From NCBI GenBank assembly GCA_003156805.1, contig PMHV01000045.1, forward strand, positions 239 through 64,238: 64,000 nucleotides of DNA, given 5' to 3'. Under the pieces are notes generated by a model. That model saw nothing but the letters and a program-made list of their open reading frames with translations. It did no database searches and was not told the DNA's origin. This DNA is from Acidobacteriaceae bacterium. Lineage in GTDB: Bacteria > Acidobacteriota > Terriglobia > Terriglobales > Acidobacteriaceae. Position 1 is the first letter of the stretch; every line of letters begins with the position of its first letter. The position numbers and the translations under genes are program-made. Shown here in pieces: positions 51,712-63,396 of this stretch.

Positions 51712-52025
51712 TTGATTCACTGATGCGGACGATTTCATTTATCTACATCGAAGATATGAGATCCCGTATCGCCGCGAGGTGAAATGCTCAATGGTATGGC
51801 GCAAGGCGACTGAGAACACCATGGCTGATGATCGGGCGCCGCGGTTCTCGGCTGGCGAACATGTTGGCCTGTATAATCGCCGGTACTCGCCCAATCGTGA
51901 GCTTCAGTCAGTTCAAGCTAGCCTCGGCTTGCGAGCAGCGCTGCATCGGTAGGTCTTCGATCGGGAGCTTCGTGGCATTGATGGATTTCATGGGTGGGAC
52001 AAACATGCTAGAAGGAAGGTGCAGT
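51712..52025. other. 314-bp stretch upstream of the TonB receptor
   Basis: The receptor frame is open back to 51828, but its first 66 codons look unlike protein, with no ribosome binding site before any earlier start. I therefore regard this as non-coding leader. I see no riboswitch fold or clear promoter pair in it. Confidence 0.45.
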
Positions 52026-55000
52026 ATGTTGTCGGTTAGCGGCTTGCTCCAGCGCAGGCCATGGAGTTGTCTTGCGTCCGTCTCTCTTCTGTCCGTTCTG
52101 CTGTGGTGTGTCCTGCTTTGCCCTTTGACTTCGCTTGCGCAGACAACCATTTCTACCGGCAGCATTCAGGGTCTGGTCACGGACCCCTCTGGCGCGGTCG
52201 TGAGCGGCGCAAAAATATCCATTAGCGATAAGGCTACGGGACGTGTGATAAAGACCGCGACCACTTCTGCGGGAGCATATACATCGGGCGCGTTGACTCC
52301 CGGGGATTACACATTGCGAGTCGAAGCTCAAGGATTCAAGACATCCGAGGTTGCGGTAACGGTGCAGGTGGGTGTGACTGCGCCGGGAAACATAAAATTG
52401 CAGGTGGGACAAACCTCTCAAGTGGTTGAGGTAAAAGGCACCGAGATCGCGGTGAACACCGAACAGGCCACGGTGCAAGGCGTCCTGACCACGCAGCAAA
52501 TCGAGAATCTGCCCATCAACGGGCGGAATTTTCTCGACCTGGCGCAGTTGGAACCGGGAGTGCAGATCCAGGATGGCGGCAACTTTGACCCCACCAAGAA
52601 CGGGTTTTCTTCCATTTCATTCGGCGGCCGATTCGGGCGCACGGCCCGCATCGAAGTGGACGGATTGGACATCAGCGACGAAACGGTAGGCACCACCACG
52701 CAAAACGTGCCCGAGGGCGCTATTCAGGAATTTCAAATTCAGCAGTCGTCGCTCGATCTCTCCACCGAACTCACGTCTTCCGGTTCGGTGAACGTAACCA
52801 CCAAATCGGGCACGAACGCTTACCATGGCGAGGGATACTACTCTTTCCGCGATCAATCCCTGGATGCCGACCTGCCCGGCGGAACCGACAATCCTTTCCA
52901 GCGCAATCAATTCGGCGGCAATTTCGGCGGAGCCATCCTGAAAGATAAGCTGTTTTTCTTCGCCGACGCCGAACGGACCAAGCAGGATTTGCTCGATCCG
53001 GTTCTATCGAGCGGCCCCTTTTCCGCGATAACCGGCAGTTTCAACTCGCCCTTTCGCGAATCGGAAGCGGTGGGGCGCCTCGACTGGCAGATTAACAATA
53101 ACTATAAGTTCTTCTACCGCTTTTCCTATGACGAGAACAAAAGCGTTCTGGCCATCATTCCCAACTCGTTCCAGCCTTTTGCGAATGTGAACCACACGCC
53201 CGTTCATGCCATGGGGCTGGATTTCAGTACAGGCAGTTATACCCACAGCATTCGCTTCGGCTATACGAAATTCCGCAATGGAATCGTGGACGCAACGATT
53301 GGAACCGGCATCTACGACCCCCTGCCCAGCATTGAGTTGGCGATTGGCGGCGATCCGGATTGCCTGACCTCGGGCGCGGACTCGTTTTGTTCCGGTCCAA
53401 GCTTCCTGGCGCCGCAGCAAACCTATCAGTCCGACCATCAGATCAAATACGACGGCAGCAAAGCAATCGGCGCGCACATTCTTCGTTATGGCGGCGGGTG
53501 GAACCACATCTTCGGCGGAGGCTTTGCCAGTTTCCTGGCGCTGGCGCCGGCGGTGGGAGCGGAAATAACCGATTGCGGCACTGCGTGCATGGGTCTACCT
53601 GGCGGAGCAAGCAACCCGCTGAACTACCCGGCAAGCACCGTGGCCCTGGGAAATGGACAAGGCTACGACTCAGAAATACCAGCTTTTGGGTTTCCCGCGG
53701 GCGGCAGCGGCCCGGACAATCGGATTTCGCTCTATATCGGGGACGCCTGGAAATTCAGACCAAATTTCACCATCACCTACGGTTTGCGTTATGTGCGGGA
53801 CTCGGGCCGCACCGACAGCGACCTGGGCTCCATTCCCGCGCTGGCTCAGTTCGACAATCAGTTTTATTCGGGTCTGGAAAATCGAGTGCACCAACCCGAC
53901 CTCAACTTCGCGCCGCAATTGGGTATTGCATGGGATCCGGGCAAGAAAGGAAAGACAGTATTTCGCGGCGGCATTGGCCTCTTCTACGAGAACTCGATCT
54001 GGAACAACATCGAATTCGACCGGCCAGCTCGGTTGCAGACGGGATTGTTCCTGGCCAACCCAACGGTGTGCACAAACGGCCAGCCCGCCACAGGTTTTAC
54101 GCTGCCGAACGGGCAGGTGCCAGACCTATCGTTTTGCGGTGAGCCCATCGGACAAGCGGCGCCGGCTATCGCCGCATTGCAAGCTCAATATCAGGTTAGC
54201 ACTGCCTCGGTAGGTTCATCGGCTCCCAATCCCTCGTACATCGGAACGGCCCTGGCGGATGGTCTGGACGCTACGGGTACGGACCTGTTAGCGCCAGGCT
54301 ATGTCAGCCCGCGCTCGGTGCAAATGAACATCGGCATCCAGCATGAGATAAAGCCGGGAGTGGTTTTTACGGCAGACTATCTGCGCAACATTGAAACCCA
54401 CACGCTGCTGGCGATTGATACCAACCATGTGGGCGATGCGCGCTTCCCCAACGTGGCGAACGCCGAAGCTGCTATTTCAGCTACAAACCAGCAGTTCAAT
54501 TGCGGTGCCGGATTTGATCAGGCGTCCATTCAATGCGCCATCCAGGCGGGCGCGACCATCAGCAGCTATGCCTCGAACGGACTCGATTCCGGTTATTCAT
54601 TCTGCGGCGGAAGTCCATGTCCGACTGCCGCCTTCCCCGGCATTAACCAGAATCTCGGCGCCAACCAGATGCTCTTTCCCATCGGTTACGCGAAGAATAC
54701 AGCGGTTCAGGTGTCACTGAAACAACACTTGGAGCACCCGTTTCCCGCTATTACAAACTTTGATCTGCAAGCGTCCTATCAGTTGCAGCGCTATATCGCG
54801 TCGGCGACCGACAATGATTTCGTTACCATCGCCACGGACTTCAACACTCCGCAGCGGTACTTGGGGCCGAATGGGCTCGACCGCAAACACCAGATTTCTT
54901 TCGGCGGCACCATGGATCTGCCCTTTCACTTCCGCCTGGGCATGATTGGCCATTTCTACAGCCCGCTGCCGGTGACGCTCACCCTGAGTCCAAGCGGAAA

Positions 55001-55574
55001 CCCGGGCGGTATCTTCGTGACCGATATCACCGGCGACGGCACTGGCGACGGCAGTTTTGCCTCCAACGGTTCCGGCGGAGACGTGCTTCCGGGCACCAAC
55101 ATCGGCTCGTTCGGACACCAAGTGAATGCCGACAACCTCAACCAGGTGATCAGCAATTACAACCACAGGTTTGCCGGTCAGCCTACTCCTGCCGGGCAGC
55201 AGCTGCTCAACAGCGGCTTGTTTACCCTCGGGCAACTGCAGACCTTGGGTGGAGTGCAACAAGTTGTCCCTGCGGCTCCCTTCGACGAAGCCGGCATGGG
55301 CTGGCTGCGCGCTTTCGACGTCAGTTTGAACTGGATCTACAAGTTCCGGGAGTTGGTTCAGGTGCAGCCCGGGATTTCCTTCTTCAATGTGATGAATCTC
55401 TCGAATTTTGACGGACCGGGGAATCCGTTGAGTGGCGCCTTGAGCAACACTCCCGGATCGGTTAACGGCACCGCAGGCGAGCAACCCAGCAGCAATCGCT
55501 TGGGGCTGGGTTCCGGCGTGTTCGCTTTGGGCTCTCCCCGCGTGATTGAGTTCTCGTTGAAGGTGAGTTTCTGA
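52026..55574 (+). CDS. TonB-dependent outer-membrane receptor, Oar-like with carboxypeptidase-regulatory-like domain
   Basis: From the ATG at 52026 (preceded by GAAGGAAGGTGCAGT) the protein is 1182 residues. A signal peptide (LASVSLLSVLLWCVLLCPLT) leads to a carboxypeptidase-regulatory-like beta-sandwich (SIQGLVTDPSGAVVSGAKIS), a plug domain (NLPINGRNFLDLAQLEPGV, ARIEVDGLDISDE), and a long beta barrel ending in EFSLKVSF with a terminal Phe, the signal for barrel insertion. Proteins of this build are the dominant TonB-type receptors of Acidobacteriota and are thought to take up large oligosaccharides or peptides. The ligand is unknown. Confidence 0.93.
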   Translation: MLSVSGLLQRRPWSCLASVSLLSVLLWCVLLCPLTSLAQTTISTGSIQGLVTDPSGAVVSGAKISISDKATGRVIKTATTSAGAYTSGALTPGDYTLRVEAQGFKTSEVAVTVQVGVTAPGNIKLQVGQTSQVVEVKGTEIAVNTEQATVQGVLTTQQIENLPINGRNFLDLAQLEPGVQIQDGGNFDPTKNGFSSISFGGRFGRTARIEVDGLDISDETVGTTTQNVPEGAIQEFQIQQSSLDLSTELTSSGSVNVTTKSGTNAYHGEGYYSFRDQSLDADLPGGTDNPFQRNQFGGNFGGAILKDKLFFFADAERTKQDLLDPVLSSGPFSAITGSFNSPFRESEAVGRLDWQINNNYKFFYRFSYDENKSVLAIIPNSFQPFANVNHTPVHAMGLDFSTGSYTHSIRFGYTKFRNGIVDATIGTGIYDPLPSIELAIGGDPDCLTSGADSFCSGPSFLAPQQTYQSDHQIKYDGSKAIGAHILRYGGGWNHIFGGGFASFLALAPAVGAEITDCGTACMGLPGGASNPLNYPASTVALGNGQGYDSEIPAFGFPAGGSGPDNRISLYIGDAWKFRPNFTITYGLRYVRDSGRTDSDLGSIPALAQFDNQFYSGLENRVHQPDLNFAPQLGIAWDPGKKGKTVFRGGIGLFYENSIWNNIEFDRPARLQTGLFLANPTVCTNGQPATGFTLPNGQVPDLSFCGEPIGQAAPAIAALQAQYQVSTASVGSSAPNPSYIGTALADGLDATGTDLLAPGYVSPRSVQMNIGIQHEIKPGVVFTADYLRNIETHTLLAIDTNHVGDARFPNVANAEAAISATNQQFNCGAGFDQASIQCAIQAGATISSYASNGLDSGYSFCGGSPCPTAAFPGINQNLGANQMLFPIGYAKNTAVQVSLKQHLEHPFPAITNFDLQASYQLQRYIASATDNDFVTIATDFNTPQRYLGPNGLDRKHQISFGGTMDLPFHFRLGMIGHFYSPLPVTLTLSPSGNPGGIFVTDITGDGTGDGSFASNGSGGDVLPGTNIGSFGHQVNADNLNQVISNYNHRFAGQPTPAGQQLLNSGLFTLGQLQTLGGVQQVVPAAPFDEAGMGWLRAFDVSLNWIYKFRELVQVQPGISFFNVMNLSNFDGPGNPLSGALSNTPGSVNGTAGEQPSSNRLGLGSGVFALGSPRVIEFSLKVSF

Positions 55575-56781: not shown

Positions 56782-56809
56782 TTGACAACACCACCTTAGT
56801 ACATAGAAT
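56782..56809 (+). promoter_or_regulatory. Sigma-70-type promoter of the tyrosinase gene
   Basis: A perfect TTGACA (56782-56787), 16 bp, then TAGAAT (56804-56809), matching the -10 at five of six. A second TTGACA overlaps just upstream (56776-56781). Transcription from here would leave a leader of about 30 bases including the GAAGGAGATG ribosome binding site. Confidence 0.65.
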
Positions 56810-56845: not shown

Positions 56846-58288
56846 ATGTCGAGAGTATCGCGCCGCTCGTTTATGGCACGCATGGCTACGGTATCTGCCG
56901 GCCTTTGCTTTTCAAAATATGGATTTGCCTCGCCCACCGCTCGCGTTCGCTATGAGGCACGCACGCCCGAAGGCAAGCAGATGTTGAAGATCTATGCCGA
57001 TGCCGTCAACAATATGATGAACAGCATAAAAGAAGGGGACCCCAGAAACTGGATCTTCCAGTGGTACACCCACGCCGTGCCTCCCCAAGGTACCCCTCAA
57101 AACAAGACAGACAAGATTAACTCCACTTATCCCAGTCCCAGCCCGTACAAGGATCTCGCCAACGCGATGTGGAACACTTGCCAGGCGCATCGAGGCGGCG
57201 ATGTGGAAGACTACTTTCTTCCCTGGCATCGCATGTTTGTCTACTATTTCGAAGAGATCATCCGTTACGCCGCCAAGAACGATTCCTTCACGCTGCCTTA
57301 CTGGAATTACTCGGCCGGCCAGGACAGCGCCAAGATTCCGGATGAATTTCGTTCCGGAGTACTCTCCAAGACAAATCGCAATCCTGGAGTCAACACCGGA
57401 AGTCCCATCGCGCCCGATTACATACTGGACGCCAAGCCTTCCCTCGGGCAAGGAACCTACAGTCGCAATGGAGTCCAGCAAGGATTTAATTTGAAGCTCG
57501 ATTCCGGCTTACATGGCAACGTTCACGGGGCGGTCGGAAACACGACCAACATGGGCAGCGTTCCCTGGGCTGGGGGCGACCCGGTGTTCTGGATGCATCA
57601 CTGCAACATCGACCGGCTGTGGGCCAGTTGGAACAAGAATGGTGGCAAGAATCCCGGCGCTCCCTGGACCGGCAAAGAATTCACCTTCGCTGCTGCAGAT
57701 GGCAAACCGGTCAAGAAAAAAAATGGAGAGGTCGACGATATCGCCAAGCTGAGTTACAGCTATGACCGGTTGGAGCCTGCTCCACCGAATTTCCGGCCTG
57801 CGGCTAACATCGCCCTGTTGAACGCTCGTTTCGCCAATTTTGCGGAGGCAGCTTCTCCCAGCTTGGCGCTCGGCCGCGGACCCGTACGTCTCACGCTTGA
57901 GCACAGCCCCGGCAACAAGAACAGGCTGCTGGCTGACGAACTAAAGGCTCTCGGCACCCAAAAATCCCTCTACTTGGTCCTCAAGGATCTCCAAACCAAC
58001 GCGCAACCCGGAGTCTTGTACGACGTTTACCTCGATCTTCCCGAAGGCGCCCGAACCAACGGCGCAAACGACAATTACGTGGGCACGATCAACTTCTTTG
58101 ACGCCGAACATGCTCACACTGACGCCGCCAACCAGAAGTTCTACAGCTTCGACATCACCGATCTGGCGAAAAAGCTGCAATCGAAGGGCGGTGTGCCTGA
58201 AAAGCCAACCGTCACGATTGCCCCGGCCGGAGAAGTCGAAGGCGAGGCCAAACCCGTAGTCGGTCAGATCTCACTCGTAGAGCAGTAA
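56846..58288 (+). CDS. Tat-exported tyrosinase/polyphenol oxidase with C-terminal beta domain
   Basis: The 480-residue type 3 copper enzyme should oxidise phenols to quinones. The N-terminus VSRRSFMARMATVSAGL is a twin-arginine export signal, so it is folded with copper before export. Copper A ligands are probably His76, His115 (CQAHRGGD) and His128 (FLPWHRMF); copper B ligands His223, His227 (GLHGNVHGAVG) and His251 or 252 (DPVFWMHHCNIDRLWASW). The His115-His128 gap is 13, wider than the usual 9. Residues of about 345-480 form a separate domain (LYLVLKDLQTNAQPGVLYDV) like the KFDV domain of plant polyphenol oxidases. A close copy of that domain is encoded alone at 58488-59072. Confidence 0.93.
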   Translation: MSRVSRRSFMARMATVSAGLCFSKYGFASPTARVRYEARTPEGKQMLKIYADAVNNMMNSIKEGDPRNWIFQWYTHAVPPQGTPQNKTDKINSTYPSPSPYKDLANAMWNTCQAHRGGDVEDYFLPWHRMFVYYFEEIIRYAAKNDSFTLPYWNYSAGQDSAKIPDEFRSGVLSKTNRNPGVNTGSPIAPDYILDAKPSLGQGTYSRNGVQQGFNLKLDSGLHGNVHGAVGNTTNMGSVPWAGGDPVFWMHHCNIDRLWASWNKNGGKNPGAPWTGKEFTFAAADGKPVKKKNGEVDDIAKLSYSYDRLEPAPPNFRPAANIALLNARFANFAEAASPSLALGRGPVRLTLEHSPGNKNRLLADELKALGTQKSLYLVLKDLQTNAQPGVLYDVYLDLPEGARTNGANDNYVGTINFFDAEHAHTDAANQKFYSFDITDLAKKLQSKGGVPEKPTVTIAPAGEVEGEAKPVVGQISLVEQ

Positions 58289-58310
58289 TTTTCATCGTGT
58301 CATCTCGGAA

Positions 58311-58340
58311 CCGGAAGGGCTTGCACAAAGCCCCTTCCGG
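58311..58340 (+). terminator. Strong hairpin after the tyrosinase gene
   Basis: CCGGAAGGGCTT (58311-58322) pairs with AAGCCCCTTCCGG (58328-58340) with one bulged C and a 5-base loop, 22 bp after the stop codon. The following CTTGTTG is only weakly T-rich, so termination may be partial. It separates the tyrosinase from the paralogue downstream. Confidence 0.6.
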
Positions 58341-58487
58341 CTTGTTGCCTGCATTCAAGGAAGAATCGCTTTGTGGCTTCATCGTCTGCTGGTGTGGAGG
58401 TAAAATGGTCTAAGGCGGGTGACTTTCTGGACGATTTGGCGTCTAAGGAAATAGGGAGTCTCTTGGCAGCCAAGGGCAGGGCAGATC

Positions 58488-59072
58488 ATGAGAATCACAC
58501 ACACTGGCCTGATGGTCACCGCATCTCTCTTGTTCGGCTTGGCTTCGCGCGGTGAGATTCTCCGGGGCCAGGACACACGTGGTGGAGTAGAACCCGTGTC
58601 TTCCGCACCCGACTCCAAAAGGAAGATGCTTGCGGCTGCTCCGCTCCCGGTAAAGTTAGGCTCCGGCCCAATTACTTTGACCCTGGCTCCAGTTGACGCT
58701 GCTGAGGAATCGACACTTTCTGCGGCTCTCAAGAACTTGAAGCCAGAGGAGCACCTCTACCTTGTGATAAGGGATCTCAAAGCGTCTGAGCCTCCGGGCG
58801 TCTTCTATGACGTCTATCTGGATCTACCGCGGCGCGCTCACCCCAGGCTGGAGGATCCGCACATTGTCGGTACGCTTAATTTCTACAACTCGGTTGGAGT
58901 CTCGGCGGGCAATCCCGAATTTTTCTTTAGCTTTGACATCACCGACACCGCCAGATCGCTTCAGGTCCGTAACCTGCTCAGCGGCCGGACCACACTTACA
59001 ATTGTTCCTTCCGGAGATCCCGCAGCCAACGCCGAGGCAGTCGTTGGCCGAATTGAGTTGGTGAAGCAGTAA
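58488..59072 (+). CDS. Exported stand-alone homologue of the tyrosinase C-terminal domain
   Basis: A 194-residue protein. An N-terminal hydrophobic signal (GLMVTASLLFGLASRGEI) precedes a low-complexity stretch and then, from about residue 55, a domain that aligns end to end with residues 345-480 of the neighbouring tyrosinase. Shared blocks are GPITLTL/GPVRLTL, LYLVIRDL/LYLVLKDL, PPGVFYDVYLDLP/QPGVLYDVYLDLP, VGTLNFYN/VGTINFFD, SFDITD, TVTIAP/TLTIVP and VVGRIELVKQ/VVGQISLVEQ. It has no copper-binding histidine pattern. It lies 199 bp after the tyrosinase, beyond a hairpin. I know of no named function for the domain alone. A caddie, cover or partner of tyrosinase is possible. Confidence 0.82.
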   Translation: MRITHTGLMVTASLLFGLASRGEILRGQDTRGGVEPVSSAPDSKRKMLAAAPLPVKLGSGPITLTLAPVDAAEESTLSAALKNLKPEEHLYLVIRDLKASEPPGVFYDVYLDLPRRAHPRLEDPHIVGTLNFYNSVGVSAGNPEFFFSFDITDTARSLQVRNLLSGRTTLTIVPSGDPAANAEAVVGRIELVKQ

Positions 59073-62523: not shown

Positions 62524-63369
62524 TCAACGTCCGCGCCGCCCCTTGCCTCCGGCGGCTGCGGCCGGCTCCTGATCTCTCGCCGCAGCGGCTGGCTTTTTCT
62601 TGCCTTCCATCTGCGCCAGGCTCTGCTTCAGCGCAGCCATCAGATCAATCACCGGAGCCAGTTTCTTCGGCTGCTCCACTGCGGCCACTTCTCCGCCTTC
62701 AAGCTTGGTTTCAATCAGCTTCTTCAGGTTTTCCTGGAAACTGTCTTTATACTTTTCCGGGTCCCACTCGTCGGCCAGAGCCTCAATCAACTGGTGCGCC
62801 ACTTTCACTTCAGCTTCTTTCAACTCCACATCCGGCGCGCCAAAGCCTTCCACCTTCTTCACTTCTTCGGCGTAGTACATGGTGTGCAGCATCATTCCGC
62901 CTTCGTGCGGCCGCAAAAACACTGTGTATTCGCGATTGTGCATGGTGATCTTGGCGATGGCCACGTATTCGCTTTCTTCCAGCGCTTTGGTCAGCAGCGC
63001 ATAAGGACGCCGTCCCGCCTCTTCCGGCATCATGTAATACGACGACTCGAAATACACCGGATCAACCTCAGCCGCCTTCACGAACTCCAAAATCTCCATG
63101 GTCTTGGCAGTCTGCGGCTCGATTTTCTTGATCTCTTCCGGCTCGATGATGATGTATTCGTCTTTGCGAAACTCGTAGCCCTTGACGATGTCTCCGCGAT
63201 CGACTACGACATTCTCGACCGGGCATATGTATTGCTGCTTTACCCGCACCTTATCCGTGCGATGCAGCATGTTGAACGAAATGCCGGAACTGCGCGCCCC
63301 CGAAAACAGTCGCACCGGCATGGAGATGAGTCCAAAAGTTAAGTGTCCAGACCAAACCGAAGCTGCCAT
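62524..63369 (-). CDS. ku: Non-homologous end-joining protein Ku
   Basis: Bacterial Ku is a homodimeric ring that binds DNA ends and recruits ligase LigD. From the ATG at 63369 (preceded by GAGAGGGATT) the 281-residue protein has AASVWSGHLTFGLISMPVRL, FNMLHRTDKVRVKQQYICP, KGYEFRKDEYIIIEPEEI, SSYYMMPEEAG and LRPHEGGMMLHTMYYAEEV, all typical of the Ku core. The C-terminus is a Lys/Ala-rich tail as in other soil bacteria. LigD is not in the window. Confidence 0.95.
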   Translation of the reverse strand: MAASVWSGHLTFGLISMPVRLFSGARSSGISFNMLHRTDKVRVKQQYICPVENVVVDRGDIVKGYEFRKDEYIIIEPEEIKKIEPQTAKTMEILEFVKAAEVDPVYFESSYYMMPEEAGRRPYALLTKALEESEYVAIAKITMHNREYTVFLRPHEGGMMLHTMYYAEEVKKVEGFGAPDVELKEAEVKVAHQLIEALADEWDPEKYKDSFQENLKKLIETKLEGGEVAAVEQPKKLAPVIDLMAALKQSLAQMEGKKKPAAAARDQEPAAAAGGKGRRGR

Positions 63370-63396
63370 AATCCCTCTCGTGTAAGTAATCACCAT

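Follow-up and report, generated by a model that had tools for sequence, protein, structure and literature searches.

We have found a bacterial tyrosinase that carries its own C-terminal lid and whose gene stands beside a second gene for a free, exported copy of that lid. The pair lies in the window, the whole 64,000-nucleotide stretch of DNA analysed here, and it points to an undescribed kind of tyrosinase partner protein. Our preferred reading, to which we assign a probability of about 0.42, is that the small protein (the partner) would serve as a dedicated, separately exported second lid of a lid-bearing tyrosinase, acting in trans. At the sequence level, the evidence is homology, side-by-side genes in several phyla, export-type N-termini and consistent differences between partners and fused lids. 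The features of the window that bear on this reading are as follows.

56782-56809 (+): promoter-like site 5' of the tyrosinase gene (TTGACA, 16 nt, TAGAAT), from a promoter scan
56846-58288 (+): tyrosinase of 480 aa with Tat-type signal, copper core and fused C-terminal lid (ORF, Pfam)
57848-58285 (+): fused lid (DUF7868), tyrosinase residues 335-480 (BLASTP, Pfam, profile search)
58097-58099 (+): F418, inferred gatekeeper of the fused lid (published plant gatekeepers mapped)
58100-58147 (+): loop of the fused lid after F418, residues 419-434, DAEHAHTDAANQKFYS, with HxH
about 58311-58340 (+): intergenic stem-loop (predicted fold)
58488-59072 (+): stand-alone lid, the partner, of 194 aa with a hydrophobic, Sec-like N-terminus (ORF, BLASTP, Pfam)
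58626-59069 (+): DUF7868 domain of the partner, residues 47-194 (Pfam)
58884-58886 (+): Y133, the partner residue at the gatekeeper position (ungapped alignment)
58887-58931 (+): loop of the partner after Y133, residues 134-148, NSVGVSAGNPEFFFS, with neither His nor Met

Both reading frames are as an earlier sequence-only reading of this DNA had given them. It had also assigned a Tat signal to the enzyme and a Sec-like one to the small protein, and we read the two N-termini in the same way: the tyrosinase has the motif SRRSFM, and that of the partner is hydrophobic and Sec-like. The hairpin that it placed between the genes is present in the predicted fold. The intergenic stretch is, however, not unusually stable (z -0.87), and no terminator was called in it on the + strand, so these results lend no support to the suggestion that expression of the two could differ. 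The promoter-like site matches 11 of 12 consensus positions, which is no proof of a promoter, as the shuffled region gives a mean of 1.0 passing site. Elsewhere in the window, a large barrel protein of the outer membrane that carries a carboxypeptidase-regulatory-like domain (51828-55574, +) and a bacterial Ku protein (62524-63396, -) have no evident tie to the pair.

The partner (residues 49-194) and the tyrosinase (residues 335-480) share 62 of 148 identical positions by BLASTP (42%, E 3e-31). The claim that the small protein copies the C-terminal domain of its neighbour thus stands well above background, over a stretch that is slightly longer than first noted and begins at residue 335. Both proteins match Pfam DUF7868 (PF25271) above its cut-off of 25 bits, the tyrosinase with 46.8 bits and the partner with 39.1 bits, and the partner belongs to the family over profile positions 4-158 of 158. 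With a Pfam Tyrosinase match of 105.6 bits, a Tat motif and this domain, the window enzyme has the zymogen-type layout of copper core, fused C-terminal lid and signal peptide. The plant KFDV lid (PF12143) reaches the tyrosinase below threshold (15.8 bits against a cut-off of 26) and is absent from the partner's Pfam matches at E<=1, among which DUF7868 stands alone; neither the MelC1 family (PF06236) nor the PpoB2 family (PF09948, COG5486) is matched by the partner. A profile built from 68 partners and fused lids was then compared with solved structures. It matched the C-terminal domain of bacterial 8b74 (1.4e-16), apple polyphenol oxidase (PPO) 6elv, 6elt and 6els (2e-12 to 4e-11), 9wfm (4e-4) and tomato PPO 6hqi (0.0014). 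By profile similarity, the DUF7868 lid is remotely related to that of plant PPOs, yet it does not reach the KFDV family as such; kinship with that domain, as first proposed, is therefore borne out by the structures and falls short of the Pfam cut-off.

In order to see how widely such pairs occur, one genome each of 84,980 species was scanned with tyrosinase-derived patterns. The scan gave 209 relatives, the best 80 of which were kept as 79 loci; nine others brought the set to 88 loci, the window was added, and all were searched on both strands with an iterated DUF7868 profile. Stand-alone DUF7868 domains adjoin tyrosinases in many of these 88 loci (best 80 of 209 relatives plus nine). A tree of 91 tyrosinase cores places the window enzyme in a clade with support of 100/100, whose 44 members mostly bear Tat signals. 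Within this sample, 25 of the 44 are paired, 24 with the partner seen adjacent and one (L053) by inference: its partner frame ends 171 bases from its own contig end, its tyrosinase frame ends 336 bases from the end of another, and the order is intact in its close relative L016, for which reason we treat the gap as an assembly break. The remaining 19 are unpaired. Two of these (L025, L055) lie at contig edges and were left out of the judgement, so that no partner was seen in 17 of 42 judgeable members; 14 of them gave a single DUF7868 match each in a genome-wide search, namely the fused lid, and L013, L042 and L051 were scored from their flanks alone. Outside the clade, two further pairs occur (L090, L091).

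Named carriers of the pair belong to Pseudomonadota, Acidobacteriota (L020) and Nitrospirota (L023), and the rows are not independent, since closely related pairs are among them, five from Pseudomonas and three from Chromobacterium. A single origin of the partners is not rejected (AU p 0.056); the unconstrained tree, in which long branches meet, needs 9 changes. The genome of the window, 95% complete, has just two DUF7868 copies at E<=0.001, the tyrosinase and the partner. There were no matches in 36 other same-genus genomes of the relatives sample. Across the phylum, a sample of 396 genomes contained 6 with a match, counting that of the window. With so few carriers among the sampled relatives, the pair is sporadic in this lineage, a pattern that either acquisition by transfer or repeated loss could explain. 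A scan of viral contigs, and one for genome contigs with both domains of the window pair, gave no result.

All 26 adjacent pairs in these loci (from the best 80 of 209 relatives and others) have the partner on the tyrosinase strand at gaps of -38 to 270 bp, upstream in 19 and downstream in 7. Every one of the 26 partners has a hydrophobic, export-type N-terminus by a crude hydrophobicity score, the same score by which their start codons were picked. The paired tyrosinases, L053 included, pass a crude Tat rule in 26 of 27 cases, and in L050 the motif was found by eye. A loose lipobox pattern is matched by 9 of the 26 partners, about 6 of them canonical by eye, which makes the word diffusible doubtful as a rule in the earlier suggestion of a diffusible inhibitor. 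The lipobox would also suit a partner that anchors or targets the tyrosinase to the membrane, the cell wall or a polysaccharide, as would the nearest folds beyond the PPO lids, which PMC10526336 places in carbohydrate-binding or -processing proteins. However, 17 of the 26 partners match no lipobox, no binding site was identified in the partner, and the aromatic residue described below would stay unexplained. We consider such a targeting role quite improbable.

The partner might also be a lid duplicate without function that stays by chance. Its dN/dS exceeds that of its own tyrosinase in 11 of 11 comparisons, six of which fall among four near-identical Pseudomonas, and it is missing from many members of the clade. 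The ratio is nevertheless well below 1, at 0.185-0.364 in 10 of the 11; the value of 0.648 for L015/L019 is not relied on, nor is the comparison L018/L019, where dS is saturated at 2.0. Open frames, export-type N-termini and co-directional linkage across phyla in both gene orders also speak against a relic, and we regard this explanation as very improbable indeed.

Stand-alone lids away from tyrosinases would weaken the link between the two genes. Among 398 genomes drawn evenly from the phylum of G460, the genome of L024, with up to nine candidates scored per genome, nine had matches. Stand-alone frames were present in the centre genome and in that of L019, a known carrier, and adjoined a tyrosinase in each; the remaining seven matches fell in frames of tyrosinases, including one fragment. 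Two samples of the window's phylum, of 396 and 297 genomes, contained the window's own stand-alone frame and no other. In 36 genomes chosen for their tyrosinases, extra stand-alone frames occur in three Chromobacterium genomes, as parts of the split cassettes described below, and in the genome of L053; a 721-aa frame in G459 was left out of this survey. The expected tie of stand-alone copies to tyrosinase genes is seen in distant bacteria, and no orphan lid turned up in these genome samples, which form a weak test given their few carriers.

Three candidates were set aside. The frame at L012 (4704-5495, +, plasmid of Streptomyces sp. BHT-5-2) starts inside the tyrosinase core and is a 5'-truncated tyrosinase end beside transposase-like genes, and the 290-aa frame L129 in G740 is a tyrosinase piece with a CuB motif. 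At L010, in a genome of the window's family, a small secreted-type ORF 3' of the tyrosinase (2220-2705, +) resembles the partners in position and in a stretch reading VSTVGFYPAD; it shows no homology to them (hhalign probability 0.9%) and has no Pfam match.

The residue that plugs the active site of lidded enzymes gives the comparison between partner and fused lid its point. Table 2 of PMC10526336 lists the gatekeepers Ile456 (Coreopsis), Leu447 (tomato) and Val449 (apple). When counted in the chains, Ile456 and Leu447 lie exactly five residues after a conserved Gly (AGGFAQI-PH, AGSYTSL-PH), and so does Val449 (AGSFVSV-PH) if the chain begins with a two-residue tag remnant before Lys1. The automatic profile alignment is off by three residues from this count for apple and agrees with it for 9wfm (GSFEFF). 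In the bacterial family, the Gly is present in 83 of 85 tyrosinase rows, and both its column and the Gly+5 column are ungapped in all rows, which places F418 of the window tyrosinase and Y133 of the partner at the gatekeeper position. Fused or split lids have Phe there in 90 of 90 cases. The partners are aromatic at this position in 25 of 25, with Tyr in 14 and Phe in 11, and have switched between the two at least seven times on the tree. Retention of the fold and of an aromatic gatekeeper favours a second lid in trans, and it may also be compatible with the partner acting as an inhibitor or as a member of a complex.

The two kinds of lid differ in the loop that follows. In 43 fused lids of the clade, this loop has 16-28 residues (median 19), and His and Met make up 14.9% of it versus 1.9% elsewhere in the domain; among 2000 sets of randomly drawn stretches, the highest value was 6.8%. 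The loop of 25 partners has 7-19 residues (median 13) and is shorter than that of the partner's own tyrosinase in 23 of 24 pairs, the exception being L020, in which the partner's loop is the longer one. The window pair differs little in length (15 versus 16 residues). Two or more His/Met occur in this loop in 38 of the clade's 43 fused lids versus 1 of 25 partners; lids outside the clade show the trait less clearly, with 5 of 14 among those linked to PpoB2, 18 of 28 among others and 4 of 5 split lids. At least one loop His is present in 31 of 43 fused lids, and a single one is kept in 10 of 24 partners. Partner loops as a whole are also slightly enriched in His/Met, since 21 of 2000 random draws from these domains came out as high; these two observations argue against a clean loss of metal-type residues. 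The apple lid has the sequence HSHKH at the site that matches this loop. In tyrosinase lids generally, this loop may serve to handle copper.

These data bear on the idea, raised from the sequence alone, that the partner is a copper caddie which loads the exported apo-enzyme in the manner of MelC1. A small adjacent gene, as in melC, a Tyr at the gatekeeper position in 14 of 25 partners, as in MelC1, and the residual His with its slight enrichment would fit, as would the copper-chaperone gene found in the neighbouring slot of the sister type (below). MelC1, however, carries copper-binding residues, and it brings the Streptomyces tyrosinase to Tat, whereas the enzyme here has a signal of its own. 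Among 24 partners, His, Met and Cys each stay below 25% in every column, with no metal ligand conserved, and most of the His/Met loop is gone. A caddie is disfavoured on these grounds and now appears improbable.

The main rival is an activating exchange of lids, in which the partner would displace the fused lid, by replacing it or pairing with it, and leave the site open without proteolysis. The partner keeps the lid fold with a trimmed loop, as such an activator might, and PMC9454253 describes the lids as keeping such enzymes latent and their activation in vivo in bacteria as an open question. An aromatic gatekeeper in every partner suggests plugging more than opening, and we hold lid exchange to be unlikely.

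A sister type of tyrosinase has another gene in the slot of the partner. A DUF2182-type gene is present in 18 of the 88 loci (best 80 of 209 relatives plus nine), and that of L041, the sole one scanned, is Pfam PpoB2, the copper-chaperone family that includes the tyrosinase chaperone of Marinomonas (PMC2855505). With two loci added, 20 PpoB2-linked tyrosinases group in the tree with support of 74/50, and 19 of them with 98/82. Nineteen of the 20 have no Tat signal by the crude rule, and the one flagged (L014) appears by eye to be flagged wrongly. The division between partner and PpoB2-like gene follows the tree, so shared ancestry may lie behind it no less than function. Five of the PpoB2-linked loci hold split cassettes, in the order of a lid-less core, a separate DUF7868 gene and a PpoB2-like gene.

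L041: 1955-4214
L063: 537-3597
L093: 4887-7202
L133: 1972-4289
L134: 2344-4763

The loops of the split lids keep 20-21 residues and the gatekeeper Phe. A separate lid gene in five such cassettes indicates that a DUF7868 domain can serve in trans. The lid of L093 has a lipoprotein-like N-terminus, and no signal was seen on its core. No PpoB2-like gene was found in the flanks of members of the window clade except at L041, where a split cassette lies directly upstream of the clade tyrosinase; we assign the gene to the cassette because those of L133 and L134 stand on contigs of their own.

Tat exports folded protein and Sec unfolded protein. If the signals are rightly read, the partner is thus unable to chaperone the enzyme in the cytoplasm. 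As a second lid, the partner would leave the cell unfolded through Sec and meet an enzyme that had left folded through Tat outside the cytoplasm. It would dock at the enzyme's lid face, its Tyr or Phe facing the substrate pocket. Following the fused lid, or in its stead, it would occupy the active site as a placeholder that serves latency or maturation. It would not carry copper, the handling of which would be left to the His/Met loop of the fused lid. In V. spinosum tyrosinase, Phe453Ala gives higher activity with underloaded copper sites (PMC10526336), which ties copper content to plugging within a fused lid; here the two may be split between separate proteins. The Tyr of MelC1 that reaches into the active site becomes oxidised, which putatively frees the caddie (PMC11608171). 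Where the gatekeeper is Tyr, as in the window and similar to MelC1, the enzyme could oxidise it and thereby time the partner's release. The full version of this division of labour, in which the fused His/Met loop loads copper while the free lid plugs the site with its Tyr as a self-timed latch, would add a two-lid form to the bacterial tyrosinase architectures and is a doubtful extension.

Several points weigh against a second lid. The aromatic residue at the gatekeeper position could be structural, and loss of most of the loop could mean that the partner no longer plugs the site. The enzyme is already lidded, so another lid looks redundant, and the 17 judgeable clade members without a partner imply that the enzyme can work alone.

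How lidded tyrosinases are activated in cells, and which other roles their lids have, are described as open (PMC9454253, PMC5544008). With a natural second lid whose differences from the first lie mainly beside the active site, plugging and metal handling would become separable in a two-protein system; if the reading is true, part of DUF7868, an unnamed Pfam domain, would also gain a role. A part for tyrosinases in the storage of wetland carbon is under discussion (PMC9454253), so their switching matters beyond one genus. Three other loci bear on activation or fusion. At L037 (1458-6383, +), a 1642-aa frame ends in Tyrosinase and DUF7868 and also has a subtilase (Peptidase_S8) and a peptidoglycan-binding domain; with protease and zymogen in one frame, the product could be self-activating. 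A 1145-aa frame at L021 (2-3436, +) likewise ends in Tyrosinase and DUF7868, with peptidoglycan-binding and OmpA domains. On Sinorhizobium meliloti plasmid pEm1132a (L136, 549-5839, +), the genes after an unpaired clade tyrosinase encode a hypothetical protein and then an M4 metallopeptidase, a possible candidate for an activating protease.

The review PMC9454253 presents the bacterial architectures as caddie plus enzyme, fused lid and bare enzyme, and caddie and lid forms are also described in PMC11608171. No paper in the open literature searched contains the word DUF7868. In that literature we found no description of a fused-lid tyrosinase with an extra free lid, in agreement with the earlier impression, which is no proof of novelty.

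Among known systems, the fused lids of V. spinosum vsTyr, Ralstonia RsTyr and plant PPOs are homologous to the partner domain by profile and share its gatekeeper position five residues after the conserved Gly. Unlike them, the partner is an extra exported copy on top of a fused lid, its loop is short and poor in His/Met, and its gatekeeper is often Tyr. MelC1 of Streptomyces resembles the partner as a separate small protein encoded beside a tyrosinase, as in the 26 adjacent pairs, and as one with an aromatic, frequently Tyr in the partners, at the gatekeeper position. It differs in that the partner has no MelC1 Pfam match, no conserved metal ligands and a Sec-like signal, while its enzyme has a lid and a Tat signal of its own. 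PpoB2, known from the Marinomonas operon, is likewise a neighbour of tyrosinases whose lids belong to the same domain family, but it is an integral membrane protein, is not homologous to the partner, and is linked here to tyrosinases without a Tat signal. The split-lid cassettes also have DUF7868 as a gene of its own beside a tyrosinase core; unlike in the window pair, that core bears no lid of its own, and the lid beside it retains the long loop and the Phe.
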